From contig NZ_CP118955.1 in NCBI RefSeq assembly GCF_029023785.1, positions 1,300,501-1,364,500 on the forward strand: a stretch of DNA of 64,000 bases. Direction: 5' to 3'. Positions 27,515 to 58,651 of this stretch are shown here, piece by piece. The translations under genes were made by a program, and so were the position numbers. Below the pieces are notes generated by a model. The model ran no database searches. It saw nothing but the letters and a program-made list of their open reading frames with translations, and had not been told where the DNA came from. This DNA is from Enterococcus faecium (lineage in GTDB: Bacteria > Bacillota > Bacilli > Lactobacillales > Enterococcaceae). Position 1 is the stretch's first letter; each line of letters opens with the position of its first letter.

Positions 27515-27549
27515 CTTATTCCTCCTTTGTTCTTACTTCAATAAAAAAA

Positions 27550-27594
27550 GCCACTTAGCGTTTGATACGAAAAAGTACGAAACGTCTAGGTGGC
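27550..27594 (-). terminator. leader terminator upstream of aroE
   Basis: On the minus strand GCCAC...GTGGC arms enclose a hairpin with internal mismatches and a U-rich loop, and it ends in T7 (27543-27549). It lies 35 bases before the aroE start and after the promoter at 27719-27748, so it can act only as an attenuator of aroE. Confidence 0.75.
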
Positions 27595-27617
27595 AAAGTA
27601 GCAAATTCTTTTCTCAT
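27555..27617 (-). CDS. candidate aroE leader peptide, 20 codons
   Basis: ATG at 27617, sequence MRKEFATLPPRRFVLFRIKR, stop TAA at 27555-27557. The frame cannot extend upstream because TAA ACG ATG precedes it. The Phe13 codon falls in the 5' arm of the terminator, Phe16 in its loop region and the stop codon in its 3' arm, so a ribosome on this ORF would melt the terminator. The Shine-Dalgarno is weak (AAGTAAACG) and a near-perfect 11-base hairpin (27605-27615 with 27631-27641) includes the ATG. A ribosome-sensing leader is inferred; a chance ORF is possible. Confidence 0.5.
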   Translation of the reverse strand: MRKEFATLPPRRFVLFRIKR

Positions 27618-27718
27618 CGTTTACTTGTCAGAGCAAAGAATATTCTATTTAATTGTTAAAATCATTGACTACGTGATCCTACAAAACACCCAAATATGTT
27701 TAATTGTTTATTGTTTTA

Positions 27719-27748
27719 AGTATAGGATGAATCAAAGGAAGATGTCAA
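27719..27748 (-). promoter_or_regulatory. promoter of the aroE leader
   Basis: On the minus strand TTGACA (27743-27748), an 18-base spacer and TATACT (27719-27724). The leader before aroE is then about 200 bases, far longer than a simple 5' UTR. Confidence 0.75.
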
Positions 27749-27792
27749 TGAGTTTTCAAGTCCTTCTACTGAAAGGAATTTTTCTGTCGAAA

Positions 27793-28563
27793 TCAATCCA
27801 CTACTTCTTCAAAGAACTGCAAAAGGTCGCCCATTGTCAAATGTTGCTTTTCTTTTTCAGAAATATCTTGAACGATTTTCCCTTTTTGGAGTACGATCAG
27901 ACGATTTCCGTATTTCAAGGCGTCTTCCATTCGATGCGTGATCATGAGACAAGTCAATTTTTGTTCATTGATCCGCTGATTTGTTAATCGCATTAATGCT
28001 TTAGCTGTTTTAGGATCTAAAGCTGCAGTATGTTCATCTAATAATAGTAACTCAGGAGCTGTGATCGTCGCCATCAGCAAGCTTAATGCTTGGCGTTGAC
28101 CACCAGATAATTCACCCGCTGGAGTATCCAAGTGTTGCTCTAGGCCATTACCGACTTCTTGACATAGTCTGAAAAAATCTTCTTTTTGATTTTTCAAGTT
28201 ACGTAAACGGAATTTCCGTTTTTGACCTCTTTTTTGTGCAAGTAGCAAATTTTCTGCTACTGTCATCCGAGGAGCCGTTCCCATCTTGGGGTCTTGGAAA
28301 ACTCGAGAAAGGAATCGTGCTCTTTTTTCTTCTGAATCTTTTGTGATCAGCTGATCTTTAAAAGAGATCGATCCTTGACTGAGTTGAAGCGTACCAGCGA
28401 TCGTATTGAACAGTGTGCTTTTTCCAGCACCATTCCCGCCAAGGACAGTGATGAAGTCCCCTTCTCTGATTGTAAGGTTAATTTCATCCAATAGTACTTT
28501 CTCTTCATTCATTCCATTGTTTACGACTTTTCTGCCATTTTTGATTGTCAATATATCAGTCAT
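27793..28563 (-). CDS. trpZ: ABC transporter ATPase, TrpZ-type
   Basis: 256 residues with Walker A GGNGAGKST, Q-loop FQDP, signature LSGGQRQAL, Walker B LLLLDEHTAALDP and the H-loop ITHRME. It starts three bases after the permease stop, behind GGAGGCATAGTA. It powers the permease and binding protein encoded just upstream in the same operon. The TrpXYZ assignment comes from the binding-protein family and the Trp-codon leader of the operon. It is last in the operon; a separate promoter for aroE begins about 45 bases after it. Confidence 0.85.
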   Translation of the reverse strand: MTDILTIKNGRKVVNNGMNEEKVLLDEINLTIREGDFITVLGGNGAGKSTLFNTIAGTLQLSQGSISFKDQLITKDSEEKRARFLSRVFQDPKMGTAPRMTVAENLLLAQKRGQKRKFRLRNLKNQKEDFFRLCQEVGNGLEQHLDTPAGELSGGQRQALSLLMATITAPELLLLDEHTAALDPKTAKALMRLTNQRINEQKLTCLMITHRMEDALKYGNRLIVLQKGKIVQDISEKEKQHLTMGDLLQFFEEVVD

Positions 28564-28565
28564 TA

Positions 28566-29447
28566 CTATGCCTCCTTCTCAAAACCCGTTTTTAAGTTCA
28601 GTGCTTTCTTCAATTGCGGGATCATCAGACAAATAGCTAAGATGATAGCGGAGAACAACTTCAGATAAGTCGTGTCAAACCCTAGTTTGATTACTACTAA
28701 AATCAATAGCTGATAAATGATACTGCCGACAACAATAGCAATCAATCTTTCTGCTAGCGTCAATTCTTGGAAGATCACTTCACCGATGATGATGGAAGCA
28801 AGACCGATGACGATTACGCCAATCCCTTTATTTACATCTGCATATCCGTCGTTCTGGGCAATCAGCGCACCGGATAATGCAATGACACCGTTCGACAAAG
28901 TTAAACCTAAAATTTTCATACGATCGGTTTTTATCCCTAACGACCGAGCCATCGTTTCGTTGTCTCCTGTCGCAATATAGCCTTGACCCAAATCTGTATT
29001 GAAGAAGAATAGCAGTACAGCAATCAAGATGCCCAAAGAGATGAAGCCAAGAAGGACTGTGTCAAAGTAATCAGGTAACCCAAAGCGATGGAAGCTGTCT
29101 TGTAGAATCGGATGATTCAATAAAGAAAGATTTGGTGTTCGCATCACAAACAAAATAACTGAGTTCAATCCTGACATCACTAAAATCCCTGCTAAAATAA
29201 CCGGTATCTTTCCTTTTGTATAAAGTAACCCCGTAACGAGTCCTGCTATCATGCCAGCACCTACGCCTAATAATGTAGCTACAATCGGCGCTACCCCATG
29301 AGTAATAGCTGTCACACAGACAGCAGCACCTAATGGGAAGGACCCTTCTGTCGTCATATCAGGAAAGTCTAAGATCCGATAAGTCATGAAAATCCCTAAT
29401 CCTAATATTGCCCAAAGCATGCCTTGTGAAATAGCCGATACGATCAT
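28566..29447 (-). CDS. trpY: ABC transporter permease, TrpY-type
   Basis: 293 residues with about eight or nine hydrophobic segments, of the branched-chain-permease-like group that pairs with ABC_sub_bind proteins (FMTYRILDFPDMTTEGSFPLGAAV near the N-terminus, ATGDNETMARSLGI in the ATPase-contact loop). The start overlaps the binding-protein stop by four bases. Predicted to form the membrane channel of a tryptophan or aromatic importer. Confidence 0.85.
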   Translation of the reverse strand: MIVSAISQGMLWAILGLGIFMTYRILDFPDMTTEGSFPLGAAVCVTAITHGVAPIVATLLGVGAGMIAGLVTGLLYTKGKIPVILAGILVMSGLNSVILFVMRTPNLSLLNHPILQDSFHRFGLPDYFDTVLLGFISLGILIAVLLFFFNTDLGQGYIATGDNETMARSLGIKTDRMKILGLTLSNGVIALSGALIAQNDGYADVNKGIGVIVIGLASIIIGEVIFQELTLAERLIAIVVGSIIYQLLILVVIKLGFDTTYLKLFSAIILAICLMIPQLKKALNLKTGFEKEA

Positions 29448-30493
29448 TTGTCATCCTCCTTAGATGTTTCTTGCTGCGAGTCATCTGTAATGATTTTGGC
29501 TTTTTCCTTCATCGATTGGGGAACAATGATTCCTAAGCGATCAGCTTGAGATTGATTGATCACTGTATCCCCTTGATCAAATGTATAAACAGGCGTCGTT
29601 TCCGGTTTTTCTTTTCCACTCGCAAGTTCTGCCGCCATCTTACCGCTTTGAAGCCCTAATTGATATTGATTGATCCCGATTGTTGCTAGTCCACCTTGTT
29701 CCACCATTGTATCCACAGATGGAATGACGGGGATATTTGCTTTGTTTGCTTCTTTTACCACTGTTTGCATCGCATTGGCAATGGTATTATCTAATGGAAC
29801 ATAGATAAAATCGACTTGTCGGCTCATCACTTGAACCGTTTGTGCAATCTCATTAGTGGAAGGCACCGCATATTTTACTGATTCTAACCCTTCTTTTTTT
29901 GCAGCTTCTTCTGCTTGTGCTACTTGGTATTTTGAATTATCCTCTGAAGAAGCATACAAGATTCCGACTTTTTTTGCATTTGGCAACAAATCAGAAGCAA
30001 GCTTGATTTGTGAAGTAACAGGCGGCTGATCAGAAACACCTGTTACATTACCACCAGGTTTCTCTAAAGAAGCGACTAATCCAGCCCCCACAGGATCCGT
30101 TACAGCACCTAACACAACTGGGATCGATGAAGTCGTGTTTGCTAATGATTGAGCGGCAGGTGTTGCGATTCCAATCAAGGCATCTGGATCAGATTGTACT
30201 AGCTGTTGACTCATTGTGGCTAGCTTGCTCTGATCGGCTTGTCCATTTTGAAATTTGATCTCAAGATTTTCTCCTTCTTTTAATCCTTCTTCTTTCAGAC
30301 CATCTTTGATTCCTCGATAAATCTCATCTAATGCCGGATGGCTCACGTATTGCAATACCCCAACAACTGTTGTTTTTTTTGTCTGGTTCGTCGAAGTACT
30401 TTCTTTTTCGCCTGAAGCTTTTCCATAAATAAATGCACCTGCTAAATAAACTAAAATAATTACTACAACTGTTATTAATCGTTTGTTTTTCAT
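29444..30493 (-). CDS. trpX: ABC transporter substrate-binding protein, TrpX-type
   Basis: 349 residues behind GCAGGAGG. A hydrophobic N-terminus (about 5-22) is followed by a two-lobe periplasmic-binding fold of the ABC_sub_bind family (VVGVLQYVSHPALDEIYRGIKDGL, then VLGAVTDPVGAGLV). There is no lipobox cysteine, so unlike most Gram-positive binding proteins it appears held by an uncleaved membrane anchor, or secreted. The tail is acidic and hydrophilic. First gene of the operon, placed behind two tandem terminators and a Trp-codon leader, which points to tryptophan as ligand. Confidence 0.85.
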   Translation of the reverse strand: MKNKRLITVVVIILVYLAGAFIYGKASGEKESTSTNQTKKTTVVGVLQYVSHPALDEIYRGIKDGLKEEGLKEGENLEIKFQNGQADQSKLATMSQQLVQSDPDALIGIATPAAQSLANTTSSIPVVLGAVTDPVGAGLVASLEKPGGNVTGVSDQPPVTSQIKLASDLLPNAKKVGILYASSEDNSKYQVAQAEEAAKKEGLESVKYAVPSTNEIAQTVQVMSRQVDFIYVPLDNTIANAMQTVVKEANKANIPVIPSVDTMVEQGGLATIGINQYQLGLQSGKMAAELASGKEKPETTPVYTFDQGDTVINQSQADRLGIIVPQSMKEKAKIITDDSQQETSKEDDK

Positions 30494-30553: not shown

Positions 30554-30589
30554 CAAAAAAAGACAATGGCCAAAGCGGTCATTGTCTTT
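30554..30589 (-). terminator. second leader terminator before trpX
   Basis: On the minus strand AAAGACAATG and CATTGTCTTT (30580-30589 with 30559-30568) form exact 10-base arms followed by a T run. It is downstream of the first leader terminator and still before trpX. Confidence 0.8.
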
Positions 30590-30593
30590 ACAC

Positions 30594-30623
30594 AAAAAAC
30601 CGCATAGATTCTAATCTATGCGG
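30594..30623 (-). terminator. first leader terminator before trpX (attenuator)
   Basis: On the minus strand CCGCATAGATT and AATCTATGCGG (30613-30623 with 30600-30610) are exact complements followed by T6. Its 5' arm GCATAGAT can instead pair with ATCTATGC of an upstream segment, which would prevent termination. Confidence 0.85.
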
Positions 30624-30643
30624 CAGTCAATGTTCATGTCTAG

Positions 30644-30715
30644 CATAGATACAAGCTTTAGAAATGCACTCTAAAAAGTTGTATCTATGGGAAAGTCTCA
30701 CCATTAATACAACTT
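30644..30715 (-). promoter_or_regulatory. alternative pairing segments of the trp attenuator
   Basis: Three segments share one sequence family. Segment 1 AAGTTGTAT (30707-30715) includes part of the leader stop codon. Segment 2 (30676-30689) pairs exactly with segment 1 over nine bases, or exactly with segment 3 (30644-30654) over eleven, strengthened by an inner CTTTTTAGA/TCTAAAG stem. Segment 3 can also pair over eight bases with the terminator's 5' arm. The pairs 1:2 with 3:4 would prevent termination; 2:3 leaves the terminator free to fold. Confidence 0.75.
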
Positions 30716-30776
30716 ATCTACGCCAGCTGCGCCAATTTTTTTTGTTTTCTGCTGAAATACGTTTTGATAAGTTCAT
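30714..30776 (-). CDS. tryptophan-codon leader peptide of the trpXYZ operon
   Basis: 20-codon ORF MNLSKRISAENKKNWRSWRR, with Trp codons at positions 15 and 18, behind AAGGAAAGGGTGACC. It lies between a good promoter and two tandem terminators. The stop codon overlaps the first of several mutually exclusive pairing segments. This is the layout of ribosome-mediated attenuation. A ribosome stalled at Trp15 would leave segment 1 free, allow 1:2 and 3:4 pairing and so allow read-through. A ribosome reaching the stop would mask segment 1 and favour termination. The direction of the switch is inferred; the ORF and pairings are seen. Confidence 0.8.
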   Translation of the reverse strand: MNLSKRISAENKKNWRSWRR

Positions 30777-30808
30777 TACAGGTCACCCTTTCCTTAAGAA
30801 TTGATTTA

Positions 30809-30837
30809 AGTCTAATCGAATTTTTGAATTTCGTCAA
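30809..30837 (-). promoter_or_regulatory. promoter of the trpXYZ leader
   Basis: On the minus strand TTGACG (30832-30837), a 17-base spacer and TAGACT (30809-30814), 33 bases before the leader peptide start. It gives an mRNA leader of roughly 300 bases before trpX. Confidence 0.75.
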
Positions 30838-58399: not shown

Positions 58400-58466
58400 T
58401 ACAAAAAAACACCATCACAGCCAAGGACGAAAACTCGCGGTACCACCTTGATTGCAATGATGTGTA
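58400..58466 (-). terminator. T-box terminator of alaS
   Basis: On the minus strand the 3' arm CCTTGGCTGTGATGGTGT pairs with an upstream ACACATCATTGCAATCAAGG and is followed by T7. This is the terminator form; binding of uncharged tRNA-Ala favours the alternative antiterminator using the T-box. Confidence 0.8.
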
Positions 58467-58651
58467 ATCATTACCTCTTAAACTCGATAACGCTGAGCTG
58501 CGTCGGTATTTCTACCAAAATAGAAAAAGGGAGCAATTTGATTAGTGACTATTCTTTTTTCAGCCAAGAAAGAATTTTCTGTGAGTCTTAAAAAACAAAT
58601 CATATCCTTTTCGTACTTAATTAGTATACGCATTCTATTGATCACTGTCAA
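58436..58651 (-). promoter_or_regulatory. alaS T-box riboswitch with promoter
   Basis: The minus strand has AAGGTGGTACCGCG at 58436-58449, a perfect T-box core whose TGGT would pair with ACCA of tRNA-Ala, and a promoter TTGACA-17 bases-TATACT at 58623-58651. The region between folds as Stem I and connecting hairpins. A GCT in the leader is the expected specifier codon, but I could not place it firmly. Confidence 0.85.

Follow-up and report, generated by a model that had tools for sequence, protein, structure and literature searches.

The mRNA leader upstream of trpXYZ in Enterococcus faecium is very probably a ribosome-mediated transcription attenuator that senses charged tRNA-Trp and controls these transporter genes. 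It lies in the window, the 64,000-nt stretch of DNA analysed here. The leader ORF, the conservation of its codons, their fit to the downstream genes, the helices with their covariation and the spacing between codon and helix are read directly from sequence comparison; translation, ribosome stalling and terminator read-through are predicted. Beyond this locus, we consider it likely that Lactobacillales and some clostridia share one homologous RNA frame, a codon-programmable attenuator that has been retuned among Trp, Tyr/Phe, Ile and Leu by codon swaps and matching changes in helix 1a:3. Such an element would need a ribosome paused at the reading codon to be on, and would be off when its ORF is either fully translated or untranslated, making it a ribosome-read counterpart of the T-box. 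In Rfam, the family would then be divided between two entries, one an orphan riboswitch candidate and the other a small RNA.

Results

Architecture of the trpXYZ leader

Between a promoter-like pair of hexamers and trpX (ATG at 30493), the minus strand contains a 20-codon ORF, a series of inverted segments and two terminator-like hairpins (Table 1). Behind trpX follow genes for a permease (trpY) and an ATPase (trpZ), and then a shikimate dehydrogenase gene. The initial annotation had described a tryptophan leader ORF with rival helices and two terminators, and all three were confirmed from the sequence. A ribosome-binding site precedes the ATG, the ORF has the claimed length, Trp positions and C-terminal residues, and the claimed pair lengths hold: 9–10 pairs for 1b:2 (with 4 more beyond a small internal loop), 11 for 2:3 and 8 for 3:4, with 4:5 forming the terminator. 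The five-segment layout proposed there stands for segments 1b to 5 but had overlooked helix 1a:3, whose 5′ side contains the Trp18 codon and the final two sense codons, and also that the ORF start (AUGAACUUAUC) pairs with segment 1 when the untranslated leader RNA is folded. The first terminator, with its run of six U, was listed by a terminator scan (1 found versus 0.1 in shuffles); the second folds, contains an internal mismatch and is absent from the scan listing. The promoter had been called near-consensus and is only fair at 9 of 12 bases: four sites of such quality were found versus 1.6 (sd 1.4) in shuffles, a count within chance, and the hexamers alone are no evidence. Folded from the ATG through the second terminator, the RNA has a minimum free energy of −70.1 kcal/mol; 200 dinucleotide shuffles give −46.8 (sd 4.1; z −5.7), and none of them reached so low.

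Table 1. Features of the trpXYZ leader region (window coordinates)
Feature	Position	Strand	Remarks
Promoter-like hexamers TTGACG / TAGACT	30837-30809	minus	17-nt spacer; 9/12 consensus matches
Purine-rich ribosome-binding site AAGGAAAGGGTG	30795-30784	minus	upstream of ATG 30776
Leader ORF MNLSKRISAENKKNWRSWRR, then stop	30776-30714	minus	20 codons, ends NWRSWRR; TAA 30716-30714
Regulatory Trp codon TGG (codon 15)	30732..30734	minus	column defining the Trp class
Second Trp codon TGG (codon 18)	30723..30725	minus	optional in the family; in 125/168 Trp-class members
Segment 1a CUGGCGUAGAUA	30715..30726	minus	partner: segment 3
Segment 1b AAGUUGUAU	30707..30715	minus	partner: segment 2
Stretch homologous to RF04312 (trpB motif)	30691-30588	minus	48.9 bits, E 4e-6; below gathering score 59
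Segment 2 CAUAGAUACAACUU	30676..30689	minus	partners: 1b or 3
Segment 3 UUGUAUCUAUGCUAG	30640..30654	minus	partners: 2, 1a or 4
Segment 4	30613..30623	minus	terminator 5′ arm, also antiterminator partner of 3
Segment 5	30600..30610	minus	terminator 3′ arm; then six U, 30599-30594
Second terminator-like hairpin and U run	30589-30554	minus	fold −12.8 kcal/mol
trpX, tryptophan ABC transporter substrate-binding protein	29444..30493	minus	NCBIfam equivalog NF041285, 473 bits (cut-off 390)

Conservation of the leader and search for a T-box

Matches to the leader were found by blastn in 27 of 40 genomes: all 14 from the same genus, all 9 from the same family, 3 of 16 from the same order, and the genome of origin itself. 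Two Trp codons spaced three codons apart near the end of the leader peptide were present in all 27, establishing the conservation in orthologous leaders that a Trp attenuator would call for. One of these leaders (G009) is 97% identical to that of the window.

According to excerpts of a published study, trpXYZ of S. suis is controlled by a T-box (PMC9382623), and a T-box or a protein-bound, TRAP-like leader might be expected here as well. Searching our genome with the Rfam T-box model (RF00230) gave 20 matches, 13 of them above the cut-off, with none at the window locus, as the initial annotation had stated, nor at the two paralogous loci described below; what this locus has instead is an ORF with rival hairpins. 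Control of this kind is the least credible of the alternatives. Rfam leader families resembling the E. coli type were likewise absent from the matches listed at the locus. Elsewhere in the window, the T-box model scores 80.1 bits, under its cut-off of 93, on the minus strand at 58420-58623 (G000:C1:1358920-1359123).

The region behind the ORF resembles the trpB motif

The window has no Rfam match at gathering thresholds. At relaxed thresholds, RF04312, the 'trpB motif', aligned over all 107 positions to the region behind the leader ORF, which like the motif consists of a hairpin P1 and an intrinsic terminator upstream of an amino-acid gene. With its score under the gathering cut-off, we regard the region as a divergent homolog of the trpB motif and do not call it a member. 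RF04312 also matches the plus strand at 30644-30748 with 28.7 bits, a consequence of segments that repeat one word (CAUAGAUAC / GUAUCUAUG) in near-palindromic form; opposite-strand matches of this model, and of the family model described below, were discarded as products of inverted-repeat symmetry.

Excerpts of the study describing the trpB motif report more than 900 representatives, most commonly upstream of an amino-acid-type ABC transporter gene, class it as a 'strong riboswitch candidate' and state that a classic attenuator could not be excluded (Narunsky et al, 2024; PMC11109978). Hairpin 2:3 and terminator 4:5 are common to the motif (SRC-39-1) and the window leader. The excerpts of the published text used for this comparison mention no leader ORF, helix 1a:3, helix 1b:2 or codon classes for the motif.

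The RF04312 model does not itself cover the ORF, which lies upstream of segment 2, where the model starts. Within the order, it matched 160 of 295 genomes and 49 of 74 genera (above the cut-off in 52 of the 295 genomes), and across the phylum it matched 5 of 398 genomes, two of them already in the order set. We examined what lies upstream at 113 loci, comprising 30 returned by the order search, 3 from the phylum and 80 picked among the matches listed so as to favour different genera, with the match in our own genome excluded. An upstream ORF with Trp in its last 12 residues was present at 105 loci, and an aromatic, non-Trp (Tyr/Phe) ORF at 4 more (L062, L104, L127 and L139); at one locus (L111), the reading frame is kept and the start codon is missing. 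The other three matches (L064, L065 and L122) are leaderless, have unrelated surroundings and look false.

These ORFs bear on the proposal that the motif is a metabolite riboswitch, in which hairpin 2:3 and its inner hairpin would bind an amino acid and steer the terminator without translation. The published classification favours such a riboswitch, as does the good conservation of segments 2 and 3 across our alignment. However, this conservation is largely explained by the several rival pairings in which each segment takes part, a riboswitch would not account for an ORF at 105 + 4 of 113 loci, and Trp, Tyr/Phe, Ile and Leu genes all have the same core ahead of them, with changes at the codon positions and at the partner bases of 1a:3. 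We regard a riboswitch as very unlikely and continue with the attenuator.

One RNA family with several codon classes

A model of the family (R1) was built from 48 diverse members (alignment A1, made with MAFFT and ignoring structure). The columns of R1 include the ORF end, and the members used included the four non-Trp leaders named above; the model therefore favours such leaders, a bias of which the RF04312 set is free. Within the order, R1 matched 289 of 395 genomes and 69 of 80 genera. The leader is thus no lone oddity but one of a large family, and the interpretation in the initial annotation as a Trp leader-peptide attenuator was itself supported. In another order, 24 of 117 genomes matched, all in one family; this second group seems to be clostridial, judging by pattern matches with readable Tyr/Phe leaders in records of Terrisporobacter and Clostridium.

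A wider phylum sample gave matches in 7 of 398 genomes, 3 in the order and 1 in the second-order family. Three of the matches, L358, L359 and L360, come from well beyond the order and look false; their E-values run from 9e-5 to 7e-4, and R1 E-values near 1e-4 are therefore untrustworthy alone. The same search returned L361 (G025), a leader ending KFYFSYFR before the stop codon and followed by the gene for a TrpX-like protein; weak R1 matches (E 3e-5 to 9e-4) recur across many genomes of its genus (f3 g12). A locus in Terrihalobacillus (L283) matched the DNA pattern without a fitting leader and was rejected.

The R1 alignment of 369 rows was reduced to 314 by removing overlapping and opposite-strand matches and to 283 distinct elements. 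A set of 80 paralog loci came from 40 genomes, mostly chosen for at least two matches, and non-Trp classes are enriched in that set. Our own genome has three sense-strand matches: the window locus, L196 with a leader ending NTYYFSYFR before a DAHP synthase gene, and L197 with a leader ending NNFYFSYFR before a TrpX-like gene. An ORF with an ATG and a Shine–Dalgarno-like sequence that runs through the regulatory position was found in frame 0 for 256 of the 283 elements, compared with 16 and 12 in the other frames.

Sorted by their regulatory codon, the 283 elements comprise 170 Trp, 106 Tyr/Phe, 2 Ile and 2 Leu members and 3 that are unclear; one of the unclear class, L250, is a further DAHP synthase leader with its start codon missing. 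Downstream genes were identified directly for reference proteins and otherwise by local BLAST. Trp leaders precede trpX (157), trpB (8), an aminotransferase gene (1, whose leader reads YWFSYF) and a PTS gene (1), with 3 lacking a gene call. Tyr/Phe leaders precede genes for TrpX-like proteins (43), aroE (33), SNF transporters (15), BrnQ carriers (5), DAHP synthase (3), TrpY (2), family-3 binding proteins (2), aroB (1) and aroC (1; L326, which from the start of its protein we take to be aroC), and 1 has no gene assigned. Both Ile leaders precede ilvE and both Leu leaders precede SNF transporter genes, these classes having two members each. All 8 trpB genes have Trp leaders and none a Tyr/Phe leader, whereas the shikimate and chorismate genes have 38 Tyr/Phe leaders and no Trp leader (Fisher p 4e-9, uncorrected for ancestry). 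By these assignments, the regulatory codons appear mostly to fit the product or substrate of the downstream gene.

The sole clearly unfitting gene of the Trp class is a PTS IIA gene behind the leader MTLVFISWQGWHRIK (L245, G109). Five Tyr/Phe leaders (L179, L186, L285, L302 and L310), from f143 genomes and from Terrisporobacter and Clostridium records, precede BrnQ-type carriers, which are not obvious aromatic genes. Aromatic amino acids may be substrates of these 'branched-chain' carriers; otherwise, codon and gene may not fit here. Among SNF transporters, Leu-rich leaders (L184 and L194) stand ahead of one group, and Phe- or Tyr-rich leaders ahead of another. At L032 (G082), mobile-element-like sequence with a reverse transcriptase-like ORF, presumably the start of a group II intron, directly follows the terminator, and the usual gene is absent from the stretch read.

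The binding proteins divide along with the leaders. The NCBIfam TrpX equivalog model, which accepts the window protein, rejects four Tyr/Phe-leader relatives at 253 to 367 bits. In a tree of 110 proteins, kept from 200 after thinning, the 81 Trp-leader and 29 Tyr/Phe-leader proteins lie on either side of one branch (SH-aLRT 100), and leader class changes once versus 26 times in shuffles. This split is one historical event and not many tests.

In other Enterococcaceae, a Tyr/Phe leader before aroE lies close behind the Trp element (e.g. L198 in G040 and L204 in G756). In the window, the gap between trpZ and aroE (27515-27795, minus strand) has no R1 match and no Tyr/Phe leader was seen on reading it; by eye, it contains a TTGACA/TATACT promoter-like pair and a hairpin followed by U residues. 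A Tyr/Phe leader ahead of aroE may have been remodelled or lost here.

The reading codon is held at a fixed distance from segment 1b

Trp occupies the regulatory column in all 168 Trp-class members measured, and the other classes have Tyr, Phe, Ile or Leu there. In the 168 members, the distance from this Trp to segment 1b is 21.6 nt with an sd of 0.79, whereas the sd is 4.6 for the distance from Trp to the stop codon, which ranges over 24 nt, and 8.0 from the start codon to Trp. Since only the distance from Trp to 1b is fixed and the others vary, it would be the one relevant to a waiting ribosome.

The peptide itself is variable. Over all classes, its length runs from 11 to 37 residues, the second Trp is missing in 43 of the 168 Trp-class members, and different residues occur between the Trp codons and behind them (Q/R/H/N/K, S/N/T/I/F and R/H/stop). 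Position +1 is mostly Q or R in the Trp class and F in the Tyr/Phe class, and position +2 is S or N and S, respectively; these preferences may reflect helix 1a:3. Most Tyr/Phe leaders carry Tyr or Phe at position −1 too.

This variation counts against a nascent-peptide arrest mechanism resembling that of TnaC, in which a C-terminal W-x-x-W-R-R in the exit tunnel would sense free Trp. Within the genus, the ending W-R-N/S-W-R-R-stop is indeed kept, apart from one W-R-S-W-H-R-stop, as an arrest peptide would lead one to expect. However, in the wider family no conserved peptide extends beyond the regulatory residue, the stop codon wanders while the distance from Trp to 1b does not, and homologs replace the Trp itself with Tyr, Phe, Ile or Leu. 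Arrest by the peptide is, in our estimate, most unlikely, and decoding of the regulatory codon by a ribosome is the reading that we retain.

Five helices covary

Covariation was assessed on alignment A1 against 500 shuffles and six slid versions, with the caveat that relatedness can raise such scores. All five helices exceeded all 500 shuffles and every slid version in both covariation score and fraction of cells paired, and the pairings covary. The proportion of cells paired was 89.3% for 1b:2, 93.9% for 2:3, 90.1% for 3:4 and 92.5% for 4:5. Helix 1a:3 was the weakest, with 74.6% of cells paired compared with 68.7 in shuffles and 35.5–43.2 when slid; its changes on both sides were matched in 14 of 500 shuffles, its 27 further pair types were matched in 11 of 500, and one slid version (+2) had more pair types (28). 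Examples of its partners are CUGGCG with UGCUGG or UGUCGG, AGCCAA with UUGGUU, AGCCGG with CCGGCU and, in the Tyr/Phe class, GCUAUUUUAGAUA with UAUCUAUGAUGGC (one mismatch). Folding gives 1a:3 a value of only 0.13 in untranslated Trp members.

A ribosome at the reading codon is predicted to favour the antiterminator

With a codon in the A site, the first free base lies about 12–13 nt past the first base of that codon (the toeprint distance). Leaders were folded at equilibrium up to the end of segment 4, after removing the sequence upstream of the ribosome edge. The final set contained 261 members (166 Trp, 94 Tyr/Phe and 1 Leu); a scan of edge positions used an earlier rule for membership (163 Trp and 97 Tyr/Phe).

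With the regulatory codon in the A site, helix 3:4 exceeded 0.5 in 151 of 166 Trp and 76 of 94 Tyr/Phe members, and with codon +3 there in 112 and 71, respectively. Without a ribosome, these numbers were 6 and 10, and with the ORF's own stop codon in the A site they were 9 and 4. The full three-state pattern was obtained for 137 Trp and 63 Tyr/Phe members and failed in 60 of 260; failures include two trpB leaders with YWWNWHS (L221 and L244), L032 and L195. In L194, a Leu leader, 3:4 formed even without a ribosome. When the edge was scanned along the 163 Trp members, 3:4 exceeded 0.5 in 87, 91 and 90% at W+12, +15 and +18, in 77% at +21, in 10% at +30 and in 4% without a ribosome; the effective range was wider leftward in the 97 Tyr/Phe members (+6 to +21). 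With the edge at W+42, inside segment 2, 3:4 rises again (28% of Trp and 62% of Tyr/Phe members).

In the window leader, 3:4 reached 0.95 with the ribosome stalled at Trp15 and 0.89 at Trp18, compared with 0.06 without a ribosome and 0.23 at the stop codon; with wider segments, the corresponding values were 1.11, 1.07, 0.17 and 0.31. Without a ribosome, 2:3 formed and the ORF start was paired to segment 1, and with the ribosome at the stop codon the fold was mostly 2:3. The minimum free energy structure from the ATG to the second terminator has 1a:3 with 1b:2 instead, with the terminator likewise formed.

The following mechanism is proposed, in which the order of events and the kinetics are conjectural. 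When Trp is ample, the ribosome would reach the stop codon and cover 1b, allowing 2:3 to pair and terminator 4:5 to form, and transcription would end. When Trp is scarce, the ribosome would wait with Trp15 (or Trp18) in the A site, covering 1a partly or wholly and leaving most of 1b free to pair with segment 2; segment 3 would thereby be released to form 3:4, blocking the terminator. A leader that is not translated would terminate too, because either 1a:3 with 1b:2 or the ORF start with segment 1 would separate 3 from 4. With different codons at its reading position, this RNA frame would also serve Tyr/Phe, Ile and Leu genes.

The Tyr/Phe relative is filed as a small RNA

The Rfam model RF02863, 'Enterococcus sRNA 2410', scored above its cut-off of 61 bits at 11 of 18 family loci tested. 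In our own genome, the Tyr/Phe paralogs L197 and L196 scored 212.5 and 73.5 bits, and the window leader 24.3, below the cut-off. The RF02863 consensus contains the end of an ORF reading FSYFR before its stop codon, together with segments 1b to 5, and on this basis we identify the Rfam family as the Tyr/Phe type of the putative attenuator. In excerpts of a published study, sRNA_2410 of E. faecium Aus0004 has 195 nt and gives two transcripts on Northern blots (PMC5593968). Name, genus and length indicate that RF02863 is likely this Northern-blotted RNA, and the two lengths would reflect two tandem terminators.

The RNA is filed as a small RNA gene, whereas we take it to be the leader of a TrpX-like transporter gene after termination. 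A discrete RNA on Northern blots is what one would see if it acted independently in trans, as its Rfam name implies. However, in the loci read, the element stands directly upstream of an amino-acid gene and contains the end of a leader ORF, and the RF02863 model ends at the terminator hairpins, where tandem terminators would fit the two lengths. An independent small RNA is extremely unlikely as the explanation of this family; a side role in trans for an RNA of the sRNA 2410 type is conceivable alongside attenuation.

Discussion

Ribosome-read attenuation is already known, Firmicutes included. Within the literature searched, three points appear to be new: several amino acids share one RNA frame, its layout has six segments including 1a and 1b, and two Rfam entries are read as a single family. 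In open-access literature from 2024 on, 'trpB motif' led to Narunsky et al alone; the number RF04312 led to no paper in open-access literature, and among the titles listed in wider searches of that literature, none concerned this family. Excerpts of two further papers (PMC3166299 and PMC7724050) contain nothing on the trpXYZ leader locus.

If the proposed reading is correct, the trpB motif would be explained as an element predicted to sense a codon and no ligand. The family would also be a natural codon-swap series on one RNA frame, in which rules of attenuation could be compared across amino acids. In addition, leader codons could predict the substrates of TrpX-like, SNF and other transporters, much as excerpts of an earlier study describe for T-box specifier codons (PMC2494555).

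The E. coli trp attenuator combines a leader ORF containing Trp codons with rival helices and a terminator, and low Trp leads to read-through. It has four segments, whereas the window leader has six (1a, 1b, 2, 3, 4 and 5). The stalled ribosome in E. coli hides segment 1, which frees segment 2; in the window leader, it would mask 1a while 1b stays free. The initial annotation called this the reverse of the E. coli design, which is apt insofar as a ribosome at Trp15 would leave 1b free but passes over the part of 1a that would be covered too.

The same annotation held that Firmicutes normally use T-boxes or TRAP, which omits published leader-peptide attenuators from this phylum. Excerpts of the literature describe leucine-rich leader-peptide attenuation of S. 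aureus ilv-leu with mutant evidence (PMC5794164), and predict leader-peptide attenuators for hisS/hisZ in bacilli (PMC2965389) and for his operons (PMC9413887) where others have T-boxes. The S. aureus case concerns a single operon with Leu codons and would resemble the present family in its mechanism, and the Firmicute His leaders have runs of His codons, with no RNA frame common to several amino acids described in the excerpts. In its logic, the present family parallels the T-box, which in excerpts of the S. suis study acts on the same operon (PMC9382623) and is likewise one RNA frame retuned across amino acids by a codon-like element. Unlike the T-box, which reads tRNA directly and does not need translation, the family described here would have the ribosome as its reader.
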